64,000 nucleotides of DNA from NCBI GenBank assembly GCA_027310565.1, contig DAIDAP010000034.1, positions 1 to 64,000 of the forward strand, written 5' to 3'. Source of the DNA: Chloroflexota bacterium (lineage in GTDB: Bacteria > Chloroflexota > Limnocylindria > P2-11E). The notes beneath the pieces are model-generated. The model saw only the letters and a program-made list of their open reading frames with translations. It was not told where the DNA came from and ran no database searches. Positions 1,930 to 14,183 of this stretch are shown here, piece by piece (within the stretch, counting starts at the first letter, position 1; each line of letters starts with the position of its first letter). A program made the position numbers and the translations under genes.

Positions 1930-2154
1930 CTATCGCGAGTCGATCTCCCAGCCCTGCGCGGCGGCGGCGTTCCGCTCCAGGTCGAGATCCCGCCAGCGCC
2001 CGATCTCGCGCCAGTCGTCCTCCTTGTCCGGGACGCCCGCGTTCACGCGCTGCATCACGCGCCCGTCCGCGAGCCATTCCCGCTCGACGAGCCAGCGCTG
2101 GCCGGGACCGACGCTGCGCAGCTGATGGCCCCGCAGCACCGCGCGGCCCATCAC
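1930..2154 (-). CDS. hypothetical small protein
   Basis: A 74-residue, charged and Trp-rich protein (RWLVEREWLADGRVM, then DDWREIGRW) with no membrane segment or signal peptide. Its ATG overlaps the ndk stop by 4 bases in the same direction, so it is probably translated with ndk. I do not recognise a family. The placement and the natural-looking composition are the reasons to accept it; the opposite-strand frames here read as GC-rich shadows. Confidence 0.55.
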   Translation of the reverse strand: MMGRAVLRGHQLRSVGPGQRWLVEREWLADGRVMQRVNAGVPDKEDDWREIGRWRDLDLERNAAAAQGWEIDSR

Positions 2155-2630
2155 GACGGCGCCTTGTCCTCCGTCATCCAGCGCTCGACGTCGCGCGTGT
2201 ACGAGACGACGCCGTCGGGGAACCAGAGCGCGATCTCCGACTCCGCCGTCTCCGGCGCGTCGGAGGCGTGCACGAGGTTGCGCAGCCCGACGAGCGCGTA
2301 GTCGCCCCGGATCGTCCCTGGCGCGGCCTCGTGCGGGCGCGTCGCGCCGACCATCGCGCGCACCACCCCGATCGCGTTTGGCCCCTCGAGCACGAACGCG
2401 ACGACCGGCGACGCCGAGATCATCTTCACCAGATCCTCGTAGAAGAACTTCCCCTTGTGGACCGCGTAGTGCTCCTCGGCGAGCGCGCGCTCCACCTTCA
2501 GCAGCCGCAGCGCGGCGATGCGCAGACCGCGGCGCTCGAAGCGCGCGATGATCTCGCCGGCGATGCCGCGCTGCACGGCATCGGGCTTGAGGATCACGAG
2601 GGTGCGCTGGACGGCCGACTCGGGGCTCAC
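2151..2630 (-). CDS. ndk: nucleoside diphosphate kinase
   Basis: A 159-residue protein that transfers the gamma phosphate of ATP to NDPs through a phospho-histidine. The family opening LVILKPDAVQRG is at residues 10-21, and NLVHASD near residue 120 carries the catalytic His and the nucleotide-binding Asn. The length is slightly above the usual 140-150 because of a C-terminal tail. The GTG start overlaps the stop of the upstream M16 peptidase gene (GTGA), so both are probably one transcript. Confidence 0.93.
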   Translation of the reverse strand: MSPESAVQRTLVILKPDAVQRGIAGEIIARFERRGLRIAALRLLKVERALAEEHYAVHKGKFFYEDLVKMISASPVVAFVLEGPNAIGVVRAMVGATRPHEAAPGTIRGDYALVGLRNLVHASDAPETAESEIALWFPDGVVSYTRDVERWMTEDKAPS

Positions 2631-3916
2631 GACGCGATCTCCATGCTGACCTCTTCCATGCCGGGGGCGCTCACGGTCGCGATCGCGGCGCGCGGGCCGA
2701 CGGCCGCGACGTACGCGGCCTCGGGCCGGAGATAGGCGCGCGCGACGCGCTGCACGTCCTCGGCGGTGATGGAATCGATGATGGCGCAGACCTCCTCGAC
2801 CGTGCGGACGCGGCCGAGGAAGAGCTCCTGCCCGGCGAGCCAGTTCGAGACGCCGCGGCTGTCCTCGAGCCGCAGCTCGAGCCGGCCCTTGTTGAAGTCA
2901 CGGACGCGCTCGAGCTCGTCGGCGGGGACCAGCGCCTCGCGCAGGCGCGCGACCTCGGCGAGCGCCGCGTCGATGACCTCGCGGATGCGCTCGGGAGTGA
3001 CGCCCGCGTAGATGACGACGTGGCCGGCGTCGACGTAGTTCGCGGCGTACGACTGCACGTCGTACGCGAGCGCGCGCTTCTCGCGAAGCTCGAGGAAGAG
3101 CCGGCTCGACATCCCCTCGCCGAGCACCGCGTTCAGCATGTCGAGCGGGTATTTGTCGGGATGCTCCTGCGCGACGCCGCGCCAGCCGATGCACACGTGC
3201 GCCTGCTCCGTGCGCCGTCCGAGGAGCTTCATGCGCGCCGTTCCCGGCCCCGGCGCCGGCACGAGCCGAGGCGCGGGGCTCGGTGCGATGTCCGAGAAGA
3301 GCGACGCGACGGCATCGCACGCCTCGCCGGCGTCCACCCGCCCCGCGATGGCCACGACGATCCGCTCGGGGACGTAGCCGCGCCGCATGAACGCGCGCAG
3401 GTGCTCGGCGTCGAGCGACTCCACGACCCGCTCGCGTCCGGCGACCTCCCAGCCCAGCGGGTGCCGCGGGTACAGCAGCTCGTCGATGAGCGTGTGCACG
3501 CGGTCCTGCGGCTGGTCCCGGTACATGCGCAGCTCCTCGATGACGACGCGCTTCTCGACGTCGACGTCGCCCGGCCGCAGCAGCGGCGCCCGGATGAGGT
3601 CCGCGACGACCTCCAGCGCGACGCGCCAGTGGCGCGCCGGGACGCGCGACCAGAACACCGTGACCTCCTTGTCCGTCGCGGCGTTCACCATCCCGCCCTT
3701 GCTCTCGATCTCCTGGCTGATCTCGGCCGCGGTCGGCCAGCGCGCCGTGCCCTTGAACACGATGTGCTCGAGGAAGTGACCGGTCCCCGCGTCGAGCCGC
3801 GTCTCCATGCGTGAGCCCGCGCCGACGAACACCGCGAACGACGCCGAGCGCGCCTCGGGCATCTCCGCGACGAGCACGCGGATGCCGTTGGGGAGGACGC
3901 GCCTGGCGTGGTCCAT
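2627..3916 (-). CDS. M16-family zinc peptidase (processing-peptidase type)
   Basis: A 429-residue pitrilysin/MPP-like metallopeptidase. The inverted zinc motif HFLEH lies at residues 48-52 (H, H and the catalytic Glu), and the distal Glu ligand is expected in the EKRVVIEEL region near 125-130. The later half has the usual inactive repeat with an R/Y-rich substrate-binding area (SSRLFLELREKRALAYDV). There is no signal peptide, so it is likely cytoplasmic and acts on small peptides. It leads the M16-ndk-small protein unit, and a TANNNT box lies 9 bases upstream of the ATG. Confidence 0.9.
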   Translation of the reverse strand: MDHARRVLPNGIRVLVAEMPEARSASFAVFVGAGSRMETRLDAGTGHFLEHIVFKGTARWPTAAEISQEIESKGGMVNAATDKEVTVFWSRVPARHWRVALEVVADLIRAPLLRPGDVDVEKRVVIEELRMYRDQPQDRVHTLIDELLYPRHPLGWEVAGRERVVESLDAEHLRAFMRRGYVPERIVVAIAGRVDAGEACDAVASLFSDIAPSPAPRLVPAPGPGTARMKLLGRRTEQAHVCIGWRGVAQEHPDKYPLDMLNAVLGEGMSSRLFLELREKRALAYDVQSYAANYVDAGHVVIYAGVTPERIREVIDAALAEVARLREALVPADELERVRDFNKGRLELRLEDSRGVSNWLAGQELFLGRVRTVEEVCAIIDSITAEDVQRVARAYLRPEAAYVAAVGPRAAIATVSAPGMEEVSMEIAS

Positions 3917-3944: not shown

Positions 3945-4667
3945 CTAGCGGCAGAACACCATCGTCATGTAGAGGGCGTCGGGCCCCCGCGCCGCGCCGA
4001 CGCCGACCCGGCGGAAGGCCGGATCCATGATGTTCGTGCGGTGGTTGATCGGCTCCCACGGCTCGCTCATGAACTCGGCGTGCAGCGCGTCCACGTCGCC
4101 GTTCCACACCTTGCCGGTGTTCTCGCCGTACCAGCCGGTGCCGCACGCCGCCGTGTTGCGCGCCTTCGCGGTGCCGTCCGGGCCGTCGTGGTAGACGTAG
4201 CGGACCGTCGCCTCGGCGGCGCTGTGCCGGCGCGCCGTCTCGACCACCCTCGCGTCCACCGCGAGCGGCACGAGGCCGCCGGCGACGCGGGAGGCGTTCA
4301 TCAGCTCGACCATGCGCCGCTCCGCGTCGAGCGTCGCCTGCGTCACGGCGACCGCCACGGCGCGCGGCGTCGACACCGGCGCGGCCGGCGCGCGCGTCGC
4401 GGTGGGCTCGGGCGTCGGGGCGACGGTCGGCGCGGGCGTCGGGACGACGGTCGGCGCGGCGGTCTCCCTCTCGATCGACACGATCGCGTCGCCGCGCGCG
4501 AGGCCGCGCGCCGGCGGCGCGGCGCGGGCGACCGCGAGCGGGCCGGACGCGGACACGGCAGATCTGGGCTCGCGGCGCGGCACGACGAGCGACGCGACGG
4601 CAAGCGTCAGGAGCAGCCCCGCGATGAGCGCGCCGCCGCCCGCCTCGACGAGCCGGTCGCGCGTCAC
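3945..4667 (-). CDS. CAP/SCP-domain protein, membrane-anchored
   Basis: A 240-residue protein starting at a GTG that overlaps the TGA of the upstream HemB-like gene. An N-terminal membrane segment (ALIAGLLLTLAVASLVV, about residues 11-27) is followed by a Pro/Thr/Ala linker with PTPAPTV-type repeats. A C-terminal CAP (SCP-like) domain then runs from about residue 108, with MVELMNASR, YHDGPDG, GENTG and HRTNIMDP. Proteins of this type are extracytoplasmic and of unknown substrate; some bind lipids or act as proteases. The linker suggests the domain is displayed outside the membrane. Confidence 0.85.
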   Translation of the reverse strand: MTRDRLVEAGGGALIAGLLLTLAVASLVVPRREPRSAVSASGPLAVARAAPPARGLARGDAIVSIERETAAPTVVPTPAPTVAPTPEPTATRAPAAPVSTPRAVAVAVTQATLDAERRMVELMNASRVAGGLVPLAVDARVVETARRHSAAEATVRYVYHDGPDGTAKARNTAACGTGWYGENTGKVWNGDVDALHAEFMSEPWEPINHRTNIMDPAFRRVGVGAARGPDALYMTMVFCR

Positions 4668-5650
4668 CCCTCGACGGCGGCACGCGCGCCGAAGCTGATC
4701 ACGAGGTCGGCGCCGGCGCGGCGTGCGGAGACGAGCGACTCGCGCTCGGCGTTGCGCGGATCGGCGAGCGATTCGTTCGTCGCGTAGAGCGCGTGCTCGT
4801 CCGCCGTGAAGAAGGCGATGACGGGACGATCGGCCGCGGCCGCGATGCGCGCGACGAGGTCGCCGGTGCCGAGGCCCGGTGCGAGCACGATCGCGTCGGC
4901 CCCGGCCGCGACGTCGCGCAGCGCCCGCGCGCGCACGGCCTCCGCGTCGTCCGGCGGCAGGAGCGGGACCGCGCGCTCGGCGATGGGCGTCGCGGCGATC
5001 GCCGCCCGCTGCGCGGCGTACAGCGAGCTCTCGAGCATGACGACCGAGGCGACCGGCGTGGCGCGCCCGGCGTCGGCGAGGGCCTGCCGCAGCGCGCGGA
5101 CGGAGCCCTCGACCGTGCCGCTCGGGACGAGCAGGTCCGCGCCGGCGTCGGCGTGGACCAGCGCGATCTCGGCGAGGCGCGCGAGCGTGCCCGCGACGTC
5201 CGCGCTCCCCTCGGCGAAGAGCACGCACTGCCCGTGCGGCACATACGCGCAGACGCACACGTCGGTCGCGACCGCGAGGTCGGGCGCCGCGTCCTTCACC
5301 GCGTGGATCGCGCGGGTCACGACGTGGTCGCGCTCGCTCGCCAGCATCGCGCGCTCGTCCTTTCGATCGGGCGCGCCGAGCAGGAGCATCCCGGCGAGGC
5401 CGGCGGACGCGGCCGAGCGCGCGTCGCGGACGAGCTCGGTGATGGACAGGCGCTCGAGCCAGGGTGCCTCGGCGACGCGCTCGCGCTCCTCGACGGAGGC
5501 GGAGACGACGACCGGCTGGATGAGCCGCCCGGCGACCGCGGGCGACCCGAACGCCGTCGACCACAGCGGATGGTCGGCGAGCCGGCCGCGGACGAGCGTC
5601 GTTTGGCCCACCGGCACCGATGGTACGAGCGGCGGCGGGGTCCGGCTCAT
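4664..5650 (-). CDS. HemB-like protein lacking the Schiff-base lysines
   Basis: A 328-residue protein that follows the porphobilinogen synthase (HemB) fold along its length. KDERAMLA, IHAVKDAAPDL, DVCVCAYVPHGQC and the final RAGADLVISFGA all match family blocks. The three cysteines of the zinc site are kept (DVCVC and HGQC). However, the usual MSYS-x-K-YAS block reads VVMLESSLYA, and the VKPG block reads VLAPG, so both substrate-binding lysines are absent. Ordinary HemB catalysis therefore looks impossible. It is either a repurposed paralog or binds a related ligand. Its ATG follows the aminotransferase stop by 5 bases. Confidence 0.75.
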   Translation of the reverse strand: MSRTPPPLVPSVPVGQTTLVRGRLADHPLWSTAFGSPAVAGRLIQPVVVSASVEERERVAEAPWLERLSITELVRDARSAASAGLAGMLLLGAPDRKDERAMLASERDHVVTRAIHAVKDAAPDLAVATDVCVCAYVPHGQCVLFAEGSADVAGTLARLAEIALVHADAGADLLVPSGTVEGSVRALRQALADAGRATPVASVVMLESSLYAAQRAAIAATPIAERAVPLLPPDDAEAVRARALRDVAAGADAIVLAPGLGTGDLVARIAAAADRPVIAFFTADEHALYATNESLADPRNAERESLVSARRAGADLVISFGARAAVEG

Positions 5651-5655
5651 CGCGA

Positions 5656-6882
5656 TCAGCCGGATGACGCCGTTCGAGCCGCTCCCGGACGAGTGAGCCG
5701 CGAGCGTGCCGGGGCGAGCTCCCGCGCCCGCCGCAGGCGCTCCGCCGCCGCGGTCAGCACGTCGTGCGTCTTGCAGAAGGTAAAGCGGATGAGGTGCCGG
5801 CCGAGCTCCGGCCGCGAGTAGAAGGAGGAGCCCGGCACGCCGGCGACGCCGACCGTCTCGACCAGCCAGCGCGCGAACGCCGTGTCGTCGTCGAACCCGA
5901 ACGGCGTGATGTCGCAGAGCACGTAGTACGCGCCCTCCGGCGTGCGCGGCGCGAAGCCGGCCTCGCGCAGGGCGCCGACGAGCAGGTCGCGCCGCGCGCG
6001 GTAGCCCTCGGCCAGGCTCGCGTAGTACGGCCGCCCGAGCGCGAGCCCGGCGGCGACGGCCTCCTGGAGCGGCGCGGGCGCGCCGACGGTCACGAAGTCG
6101 TGGACCTTGCGGATGCCGGCGGTGAGCGCCGGCGCCGCGACGATCCAGCCGACGCGCCAGCCGGTGACGGAGAAGGTCTTGCTCGCGCCGGAGATCGTCA
6201 CGGTGCGCTCGGCCATGCCCGGCAGCGTCGCCATCGGGACGTGCTCGCCCTCGTAGCGGATGTGCTCGTAGATCTCGTCGGTGACGCACACGACGTCGTG
6301 CTCCACGCACAGCCCGGCGATGAACGCGAGCTCGTCGCGCGTGAAGACACGCCCGGTCGGGTTGTTCGGGGTGTTCACGATGATCGCCTTGGTGCGCGGG
6401 CCGAGCGCGGCCGCGAGCTCGTCGCGATCGAAGGCGTTCTCCGGCGGCCGGAGCGGGACGTAGACGGGCTTCGCGCCGCAGATGTCGGCGTCGGGCCCGT
6501 AGTTCTCGTAGAACGGCTCGAGCACGACGACCTCGTCGCCGGGGTCGACGATCGCGAGGAGCGTGCTCACCATCGCCTCGGTCGCGCCGCAGGTGACGGT
6601 GAGCATCGTCTCGGGGTCGACGGCCATGCCGTAGAGGTCGGCGTACGCGCGGGCGAGCGCGTCGCGCAGCGTCTTGCTGCCCCAGGTGATCGCGTACTGG
6701 TTGACGTCCGCGTCGATGGCCCGCTTCGCGGCCTCCTTGAGCGCGCCCGGCGCGGCGAAGTTCGGGAAGCCCTGCGCGAGGTTGATCGCGCCGTGCAGCG
6801 CGGCGAGACGGGTCATCTCGCGGATGACCGACTCGGTGAAGCCCTCGGTGCGCGACGCGAGCACGCGCTTCGACGCGCTCAT
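5656..6882 (-). CDS. class I PLP-dependent aminotransferase
   Basis: A 408-residue fold-type I aminotransferase of the kynurenine/methionine aminotransferase group. N-terminal INLAQGFPNF, NTPNNPTGRVF near the middle, VTDEIYEH and SGASKTFSVTGWRVG (PLP lysine) are all present. RFTFCK near the C-terminus supplies the substrate-carboxylate arginine. It probably moves amino groups between amino acids and 2-oxo acids. The ATG overlaps the stop of the 2-hydroxyacid dehydrogenase (ATGA), so the two are co-translated, which fits a shared 2-oxo-acid substrate pool. The exact substrate cannot be assigned. Confidence 0.9.
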   Translation of the reverse strand: MSASKRVLASRTEGFTESVIREMTRLAALHGAINLAQGFPNFAAPGALKEAAKRAIDADVNQYAITWGSKTLRDALARAYADLYGMAVDPETMLTVTCGATEAMVSTLLAIVDPGDEVVVLEPFYENYGPDADICGAKPVYVPLRPPENAFDRDELAAALGPRTKAIIVNTPNNPTGRVFTRDELAFIAGLCVEHDVVCVTDEIYEHIRYEGEHVPMATLPGMAERTVTISGASKTFSVTGWRVGWIVAAPALTAGIRKVHDFVTVGAPAPLQEAVAAGLALGRPYYASLAEGYRARRDLLVGALREAGFAPRTPEGAYYVLCDITPFGFDDDTAFARWLVETVGVAGVPGSSFYSRPELGRHLIRFTFCKTHDVLTAAAERLRRARELAPARSRLTRPGAARTASSG

Positions 6883-11928: not shown

Positions 11929-11983
11929 CTCCGTCCTGAGGTATGCCCGTCGCGCGGCCGAACCCATCGTGAGGCGCGAAGCC

Positions 11984-12442
11984 ATGCGCACGACGCTCGC
12001 CGCTACGCGTTTCGCTCGCGACGACCGCGGACAGTCGATCGTAGAAACAGCGCTGATGCTGCCGATCCTGATCTTCCTGATCCTGGCCGGCGGCGACATG
12101 GCGCGCGGCTATGCGATCCAGATCGCCGTCCAGAACGGCGCGCGCGCGGGCGCCGAGGCCGCGGCCATCGACTACACGCCGACGATCGCCGAGACGCGGG
12201 CGCGCGCCATCGACGAGATGAGCCGCACGCCGGGCATGGACGCGGGCCTCGCCTCGATCTCTCCCACCTTCGCGCAGGCGGACGGCGTGACGGCCTGCGT
12301 CAACCCGCCGACGCTCGCGAACCCGTGCTTCGCCACGGTGCGCGTGACGATGACCTGGCGCACGATCACGGCCTGGCCGCTCATCCCGAACACGTTCACC
12401 TTCGACCGCTCCACGCGCATGCGGATGATCGCGGCGCCATGA
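11984..12442 (+). CDS. TadE-type pseudopilin
   Basis: A 152-residue protein with the TadE layout: a short basic N-terminus, DDRGQSIVETALMLPIL, then one hydrophobic helix and a mainly extracytoplasmic remainder with a C-x(10)-C pair (TACVNPP to NPCFAT). The conserved E of IVETAL is the prepilin +5-like Glu. ATG 11984 is preferred over GTG 11969 because GAGG lies 9 bases ahead. It begins a four-gene forward cluster in which each gene overlaps the next by 4 bases, apart from the last. Confidence 0.82.
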   Translation: MRTTLAATRFARDDRGQSIVETALMLPILIFLILAGGDMARGYAIQIAVQNGARAGAEAAAIDYTPTIAETRARAIDEMSRTPGMDAGLASISPTFAQADGVTACVNPPTLANPCFATVRVTMTWRTITAWPLIPNTFTFDRSTRMRMIAAP

Positions 12443-12879
12443 GGACCGCACGACGCTTCCTGGGGTCCGACGACGGCGGGCAGTCGCTGGTCGAGTTCGC
12501 GCTCGTCGTGCCGCTTCTGCTGCTCATCATCACCGGTCTCTTCGACGTCGCGCGCGCGACCTGGCAGGAGAACACGCTCGCCTATGCCGCTCGCGAGGGA
12601 ACGCGCTACGCGATCGTGCACGGGTCCGCGTCCGTCGACGGGACCGTCGTGCAGCCGGGGAACGACCAGCCGGTCGTGGACATCGTGCGCAACGCGGCCG
12701 TCGGCGTGCCCAACGTGTCCGTCGTCGTGACCTGGCCGGACGGCAACTGCTACGACCGCAACTGCCGGGTCGCCGTCGACGCGACCGCTCCGTTCGTGCC
12801 GATCCCCTCGCGCTACCTGCTGGGGGATGTCTTCCAGATCACGCTCAAGGGCGGATCGATGCTGGTGATCCAGCGATGA
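12439..12879 (+). CDS. TadE-type pseudopilin
   Basis: A 146-residue protein with DDGGQSLVEFALVVPLLLL near residues 11-29, which is the TadE N-terminal helix with the key Glu. The soluble part has a disulfide-like C-x(4)-C pair (NCYDRNC). The ATG overlaps the preceding stop and its own TGA overlaps the next ATG, so it is translationally coupled on both sides. It probably forms minor pseudopilin complexes with its neighbours in an Flp-type apparatus. Confidence 0.82.
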   Translation: MRTARRFLGSDDGGQSLVEFALVVPLLLLIITGLFDVARATWQENTLAYAAREGTRYAIVHGSASVDGTVVQPGNDQPVVDIVRNAAVGVPNVSVVVTWPDGNCYDRNCRVAVDATAPFVPIPSRYLLGDVFQITLKGGSMLVIQR

Positions 12880-14183
12880 CCGGGCTGCGGCGCTTCTTCG
12901 CCGGCACGGACTCCGAGCACGGCCAGGCCATCGTGCTCATCGCGCTCACGCTGCTCGGCATGCTCATGATGGTGGGGATCGCGATCGACGCGGGCCAGCT
13001 CTACTCCGCGCGCCGCTCCATGCAGGAGGCGGCCGACGCCGCGGCCTACGCGGGCAGCGTCGTGCTCTACCGCGGCGGGACGCAGACGGACGCGTTCGCC
13101 GCGGCGACGACCGACGCCACCGCGAACGGCTACACCGACGGCGTGAACGGCACGACGGTCACGGTGCGACAGCCGACCGCCGCGCCGTTCAACACCAGCG
13201 CGTACGTGCAGGTGATCATCTCGCAGCAGGTCCGCACCTCGCTGGTCCCGGCCCAGGCCGGCATCACGCAGGTCACCGTGCGCGCGATCTCCGGCGCGGA
13301 GCCGCTGAACAACGAGTACGCGATCATGGCGCTCGACCGCAACGCGACGGGCAACGCCTTCCAGTCCGGCCCGACCGCGAACATCAGGCTCAACGGCGGC
13401 GGCGTCCTCGTCAACTCGACGAGCTCGAGCGCCGCCAACAGCGCCACCGGGTCGGGCAACTGGGACATCACCTGCCCCGCGACGAAGCCGTGCGCGATCG
13501 ACGTCGCGGGCACCGGCGCCGGATCGTGGCCCGCCGCCTCACCGGCGAGTCCCGACTACTTCGAGGGCGAGCGCAACGGCCAGCCCCAGCAGAGCGACCC
13601 GTTCGCCGGCTATCCCAAGCCGTCCACGACCGGCATGCTCACCGACCGCGCGCCGTTCAACAGCAACGTGCTGGGGCAGGGCATCTACACCAGCGCGACG
13701 AGCTTCTCGAACAAGAAGGTCTGCCACGGCATCTACATCCTCAAGGGCGGCGGTATGGGCGGCAGTCTCGACGTCGCGACGAGCGGGACCGACCCGGTGA
13801 CCGGCGCCGCCTGCGACGGCAAGGTGTTCATCTTCAACACGCTCTCGAACTACCCGTCCTCCGGCGGCACCTGCACCGGCGTCACGGTGAGCGGCAACAA
13901 GGACATCACGCTGTACGCGATGACGACCGGCACGTACGCGGGCCTGCTCTTCTACCAGGACCCGGCCTGCACCGCCGCGATGAGCTTCGGCGGCACGTCG
14001 TTCTCGCTCACCGCGACCGGGACGATCTACTTACCGAACGCGGCCTTCACGGCGAACGGCCAGCCGACGATCGCCGGCGGTCAGATCGTCGCGAAGACGG
14101 TCAACGTCGGGAACGCCACGATCAACATCACCTTCAACGCGGGGACGTCGGCGCAGCCGGTGCTGCCGCGGCTCGCCCAGTAG
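12876..14183 (+). CDS. TadG-like pilus-assembly protein
   Basis: A 435-residue protein. Residues about 14-45 (EHGQAIVLIALTLLGMLMM then GIAIDAGQLY) match the TadG/TadE-like N-terminal domain, followed by SMQEAADAAAYAG. The long Gly/Ser/Thr-rich remainder is presumably outside the membrane, with several Cys that may pair. It lacks an obvious von Willebrand domain. It is coupled to the two TadE genes and likely helps tether or cap pili. Confidence 0.75.
   Translation: MTGLRRFFAGTDSEHGQAIVLIALTLLGMLMMVGIAIDAGQLYSARRSMQEAADAAAYAGSVVLYRGGTQTDAFAAATTDATANGYTDGVNGTTVTVRQPTAAPFNTSAYVQVIISQQVRTSLVPAQAGITQVTVRAISGAEPLNNEYAIMALDRNATGNAFQSGPTANIRLNGGGVLVNSTSSSAANSATGSGNWDITCPATKPCAIDVAGTGAGSWPAASPASPDYFEGERNGQPQQSDPFAGYPKPSTTGMLTDRAPFNSNVLGQGIYTSATSFSNKKVCHGIYILKGGGMGGSLDVATSGTDPVTGAACDGKVFIFNTLSNYPSSGGTCTGVTVSGNKDITLYAMTTGTYAGLLFYQDPACTAAMSFGGTSFSLTATGTIYLPNAAFTANGQPTIAGGQIVAKTVNVGNATINITFNAGTSAQPVLPRLAQ

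Follow-up and report, generated by a model that had tools for sequence, protein, structure and literature searches.

The window analysed here, a stretch of 64,000 nucleotides from a Chloroflexota bacterium, carries on its minus strand a gene for a HemB-like paralogue, which we refer to as HemBL, together with the following neighbours:

2151..2630, minus strand: nucleoside diphosphate kinase (NDK), a conserved neighbour that overlaps the M16 peptidase stop by GTGA
2627..3916, minus strand: M16 peptidase, conserved downstream neighbour by synteny
3945..4668 (end approximate to 1 base), minus strand: CAP (SCP-like) domain protein, starting with a GTG that shares GTGA with the HemBL stop; found in some of the orthologous loci
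4664..5650, minus strand: HemBL, 328 amino acids by translation from an ATG at 5650; PF00490 match with 186 bits
5656..6840, minus strand: class I/II aminotransferase, conserved upstream neighbour

An in-frame GTG at 5609-5611 represents an alternative start of HemBL, which fits most orthologue starts better than the ATG at 5650. Because of the GTGA overlaps, HemBL and the CAP gene on the one hand and the M16 peptidase and NDK genes on the other are probably co-transcribed. The order aminotransferase, HemBL, M16 peptidase and NDK is kept in the orthologous contigs, including that of G028, a genome of a second family. None of the operon neighbours (aminotransferase, 2-hydroxyacid dehydrogenase, CAP protein, M16 peptidase, NDK and, in relatives, a C39-like protein) indicates a pathway. 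In relatives, a divergent C39-peptidase-like TPR protein and sometimes further genes lie between the aminotransferase and HemBL; in the window, this gap holds only a few bases (5650-5656), and those genes are gone from this spot. Elsewhere in the window, at 11969-14183, a row of TadE/TadG-like short secreted/pilus-type proteins, named by eye, is located downstream of a PKD/PD40 repeat protein.

The single Pfam match of HemBL is ALAD (PF00490; 186 bits against a curated cut-off of 24.6, E 1e-54, residues 42-325), a score that rules out a chance resemblance to ALAD. Against the NCBIfam equivalogs for porphobilinogen synthase, HemBL stays below the cut-off, with 177 of 297 bits for NF006762 and 146 of 507 bits for NF009923. 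Structure modelling, which had been proposed as a check in a first-pass annotation of this DNA, yielded an AlphaFold model with a mean pLDDT of 93.3 (40-row alignment as input) that matches solved porphobilinogen synthases, which rank on top in Foldseek (E 7e-25) and align in VIA-align with Z scores of about 41 at 1.7-1.8 A, the value of 41.6 being reached over 292 residues at 1.7 A; the nearest non-HemB fold is deoxyribose-phosphate aldolase with a Z of 19.7. From the profile match and the predicted structure we conclude that HemBL is an ALAD-fold TIM-barrel protein.

Active-site residues of HemBL

Schiff-base lysines are required for porphobilinogen synthase activity. We placed the two lysine columns by HMMER alignment to mouse and human ALAD and by MAFFT alignment with relatives; the roles given below to the P-site Ser/Tyr, the A-site Arg pair and the lid Gln are those of the HemB structures. 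The relevant positions, all on the minus strand, are:

5261..5263, minus strand: Asp130, metal-site/A-site Asp (D in 25/26 paralogues, E in 1/26)
5249..5257, minus strand: zinc cysteines C132 (5255-5257) and C134 (5249-5251), kept in 26/26 paralogues
5225..5227, minus strand: third zinc cysteine C142, in HGQC (canonical HGHC), by alignment
5036..5038, minus strand: Met205 in the A-site Schiff-base Lys column, codon ATG (HMMER and MAFFT)
5006..5008, minus strand: Arg215, A-site carboxylate Arg, kept (R in 24/25 readable paralogues)
4961..4975, minus strand: lid motif RAVPL (226-230) with Arg226 kept and Leu230 for the canonical Gln (Leu in 24/24 readable paralogues, Gln in 21/21 canonical copies)
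4880..4882, minus strand: Ala257 in the P-site Schiff-base Lys column, codon GCA (HMMER and MAFFT)
4793..4804, minus strand: ADEH (283-286) replacing canonical SGEY, by alignment
4691..4693, minus strand: Phe320 in the P-site carboxylate Tyr column, by alignment

As the first-pass annotation had claimed, all three zinc-site cysteines (C132, C134 and C142) are present and both catalytic lysines are replaced, the second one by Ala; its reading of Ser/Leu at the first site was slightly off, this position being Met205, followed by Leu. HMMER and MAFFT agree on Met205 and Ala257 and place a lysine in neither active-site column, and a misalignment of these columns is excluded, since the clade alignment is ungapped there and three congeners read MVKL and VLKPG at the two sites. 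The notion that an alignment or assembly error conceals a normal porphobilinogen synthase, for which one could point to a draft genome of 38 contigs, has a negligible probability: it is refuted by the concordant alignments, by the codons, with the change from Lys to Ala (GCA) requiring several base changes, and by a separate canonical copy, which is described below. A compensating lysine nearby can likewise be rejected, as HemBL contains K97 and K119 and no other lysines, and K119 does not qualify as a displaced catalytic Lys, since its column holds Arg in 20/21 canonical copies.

The P-site Ser and Tyr columns of HemBL hold Ala283 and Phe320, respectively, and from the A-site Arg/Arg/Gln set Arg215 and Arg226 are present, the Gln being changed to Leu230. 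HemBL shares with zinc-type porphobilinogen synthase (HemB/ALAD, PF00490) the whole fold, the zinc Cys triad, the conserved Asp, the A-site Arg pair and the KxxS serine, but differs from it in lacking the A- and P-site Lys and the P-site Ser/Tyr and in the replacement of the lid Gln by Leu, of SGEY by ADEH and of HGHC by HGQC. With both lysines, the P-site Ser/Tyr and the lid Gln gone and a canonical hemB present in the same genome, the earlier statement that this protein cannot act as a normal porphobilinogen synthase is well supported, and HemBL is almost certainly not a porphobilinogen synthase.

Distribution and conservation of the clade

With the window protein as query, orthologues were found in 25 of the 28 genomes of the window's family and in G028, which belongs to a second family of the same order, each with at least 217 bits, the remaining matches among 177 class genomes scoring at most 137 bits. 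A clade profile run against 400 phylum genomes gave ten matches at 418-539 bits (nine from the same family and G028), followed by the next at 240 bits, and thus no orthologue outside the window's family and G028 in this set. The named records of the paralogue genomes are Chloroflexi metagenome assemblies. In a 67-row tree, 23 paralogues lie on one side of a branch with a support of 100, far from the canonical HemBs of the class, which group with a Caldilineaceae sequence. This tree omits G012a, G010, G027 and G022 and takes 23 of the 66 listed non-clade loci (L047-L112), which were selected for their similarity to the window protein and do not sample HemB at random. The tree position rejects HemBL as a recent duplicate of the canonical hemB of the class. 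An ancient duplication and a transfer are both compatible with the root and the long stem; the best explanation is a HemB paralogue of long standing, passed on vertically and limited to one order of one Chloroflexota class. In the literature searched, with few subscription papers within reach, we found no description of such a HemB paralogue.

For the counts across the clade, the fragment G012a was left out, G022 was masked past residue 216 due to a frame change, and G010, which ends near the first lysine site, was entered there by hand as Glu. The zinc cysteines are kept in all 26 paralogues. The A-site Lys is present in 22/26, the exceptions being M (G000, the window's genome), Q (G011), A (G014) and E (G010), and the P-site Lys in 19/23 readable paralogues, with A (G000 and G007), Q (G006) and T (G014) as exceptions. 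Both lysines are found in 18 of the 23 paralogues readable at both sites, in 21/21 canonical copies of the class and in 68 of 69 readable non-clade HemB rows among the matches listed. A survey of homologues lacking both lysines, as suggested in the first-pass annotation, recovered G000 and G014 within the clade and, elsewhere among the matches listed, a single locus (L062). On a tree built without the two columns, at least 3 state changes are needed for the A-site and 4 for the P-site Lys, so that by this reconstruction there were about seven losses of a lysine, and no loss of the zinc cysteines among the 26 paralogues.

The other substitutions are shared far more widely. HGQC replaces HGHC in 26/26 paralogues, the lid Gln is Leu in 24/24 readable ones, the P-site Ser is changed to Ala, Val or Leu in 22/23 readable ones, and Gly-Glu-Tyr is changed to Asp-Glu-His (Asp284 and His286) in 22/23, with G028 retaining AGEY; the P-site Tyr column is variable (Y 11, S 7, H 4, F 1). 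Since most orthologues keep both lysines, lysine loss is not the defining trait of the clade, and the P-site and lid changes are common to nearly all members. We infer that the family was remodelled at the P-site first and that the lysine losses came later and repeatedly.

Maintenance of the window gene and a possible link to heme synthesis

The 18 of 23 orthologues with both lysines also speak for an alternative that we regard as rather unlikely, namely that the clade is a lysine-dependent enzyme whose activity was lost in the window's lineage, where the gene is now drifting. At clade columns conserved to at least 90%, G000 departs at 9, most others at 0-6, G014, which also lacks both lysines, and G010 at 16 and the distant G028 at 32; counted per branch unit, these departures are not clearly above those of lysine-keeping rows. 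In Tajima relative-rate tests, G000 was compared with three congeners using five outgroups; the 15 comparisons gave chi-square values of 0.02-1.42, without acceleration, and the G000 tip branch measures 0.29 as compared to 0.23 plus short tips for the congeners. Nonsynonymous change stays well under synonymous change, with Nei-Gojobori dN/dS ratios of the paralogue of 0.07-0.09 among congeners and 0.32-0.34 for G000 vs congeners, and of 0.23-0.27 for the canonical hemB of G000, all of which have to be read with a partly saturated dS, a high-GC genome and no close relative of the window's genome in the set. In addition, the zinc residues, Arg215 and Arg226 are all kept, and the frame is open with the start of the next gene overlapping. 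The window's branch is thus not accelerated and the gene is not in obvious decay; branch, rate and departure data speak against free drift, without proving function.

The search for a second, canonical hemB was successful: the window's genome encodes one at G000:C3:6900-7847 (448 bits), on a contig other than that of HemBL and in a hem cluster with genes for glutamyl-tRNA reductase (hemA), hemC and hemD. The same contig carries an amine-oxidoreductase-type gene and a chlorite-dismutase-family (HemQ-like) gene. HemB is reported to work as an octamer or hexamer (PMC7729013). Such an assembly, together with the fold shared with canonical HemB and the presence of canonical hemB in 16 of the 26 paralogue genomes, would fit a protein that partners canonical HemB in a regulatory or structural way, such as in a mixed octamer whose activity it tunes. 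We consider this improbable: HemBL is unlinked to the hem cluster, the long stem and own signatures of the clade are unlike a co-assembly constraint, and no canonical hemB was found in 10/26 paralogue genomes, although for G002, at least, the absence can be put down to a fragment missing from the bin.

From completeness alone, 22.1 rather than 16 genomes with canonical hemB would be expected (P 0.002), and 9 of the 10 genomes without it are also without hemC. These nine, in which the paralogue is present and hemB and hemC were both not found (G002, G007, G010, G014, G016, G018, G021, G023 and G028), may be incompletely assembled; hemB and hemC are adjacent, so that their joint absence counts as one region. 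These absences hint that the paralogue may be retained where heme is not made. In G002, however, the control fits a contig missing from the assembly: a flanking gene from the hem contig of G001 is absent as well, although G004 has it at 94%. A second flank gene, used as a further control for the hem contig, gave a high-identity match only in G001 and was uninformative. With the window protein rather than canonical HemB as query, no HemB match was obtained in 85 of the 177 class genomes, some of which are >94% complete (G030, G031 and G039); heme synthesis may be absent in part of the class, with the reservation that the matches were sought with a non-canonical query.

Candidate functions and related systems

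A new reaction or a regulatory role of HemBL, both raised in the first-pass annotation, is possible. Our main reading, to which we assign a probability of about one half, is that HemBL is a lineage-specific HemB paralogue that is not a porphobilinogen synthase and whose function rests on the zinc/Arg site. The clade would have lost the capacity to hold 5-aminolevulinate in the P-site and would now use what is left of the pocket, the zinc/Arg A-site, for a different ligand. The lysine Schiff base may still take part in most members, whereas the window's lineage and G014 would have to rely on zinc and Arg215/Arg226 alone for binding or chemistry, the lysine-less form being either a ligand-binding pseudoenzyme or a zinc Lewis-acid enzyme. 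A more specific version, which we put forward tentatively and consider rather unlikely, is a HemB-derived subfamily that moved from a double-Schiff-base to a zinc/arginine ligand site. The lysines would then have ceased to be essential and been shed some seven times, and the product would be a zinc-only enzyme of the HemB fold that catalyses a new reaction, or else a keto-acid sensor dependent on zinc. The lysines in most orthologues argue for an ancestral importance, however, and the window version might be altered or failing.

A related but distinct proposal is an enzyme that needs no Schiff base, in which zinc would catalyse an aldol or dehydration reaction of a different keto acid and the lysines would be dispensable throughout the clade. 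The seven lysine losses versus zero cysteine losses, the acquisition of the conserved P-site residues Asp284 and His286 and aldolases as the closest non-HemB folds are in its favour, but most members still keep the lysines and the neighbourhood names no substrate, which leads us to consider it unlikely.

Taken together, the HemBL clade is a novel offshoot of the HemB fold family, restricted to one lineage, in which the catalytic lysines were lost repeatedly. Porphobilinogen synthase is a textbook single-function enzyme with two nearly universal lysines, and a conserved paralogue with a metal site but repeated lysine loss would show that the HemB fold can do something else. The clade would supply a natural series (K/K, K/x, x/K and x/x) for the residue needs of a new role, and an annotation as porphobilinogen synthase based only on a Pfam match would be wrong for these genes.

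ALAD is reported to moonlight as a proteasome inhibitor (PMC7435893), which makes it, too, a HemB-fold protein with a role besides catalysis; unlike HemBL, moonlighting ALAD is the active enzyme with a second role and without lysine loss. The HemB of Thermoleophilia UBA6103 (L062) is like HemBL in keeping the zinc cysteines and in having lost both lysines (to Gly and Gln), but it comes from an unrelated lineage, is otherwise close to canonical HemB (414 bits), has lost both A-site Args and keeps SGEY. This locus (L062:7911-8882, DIWP01000035.1) has also lost the lid Gln and is the sole PF00490 match of its genome; its lysine loss occurs in one genome among the 31 examined, and 27/27 other matches in relatives keep both lysines.
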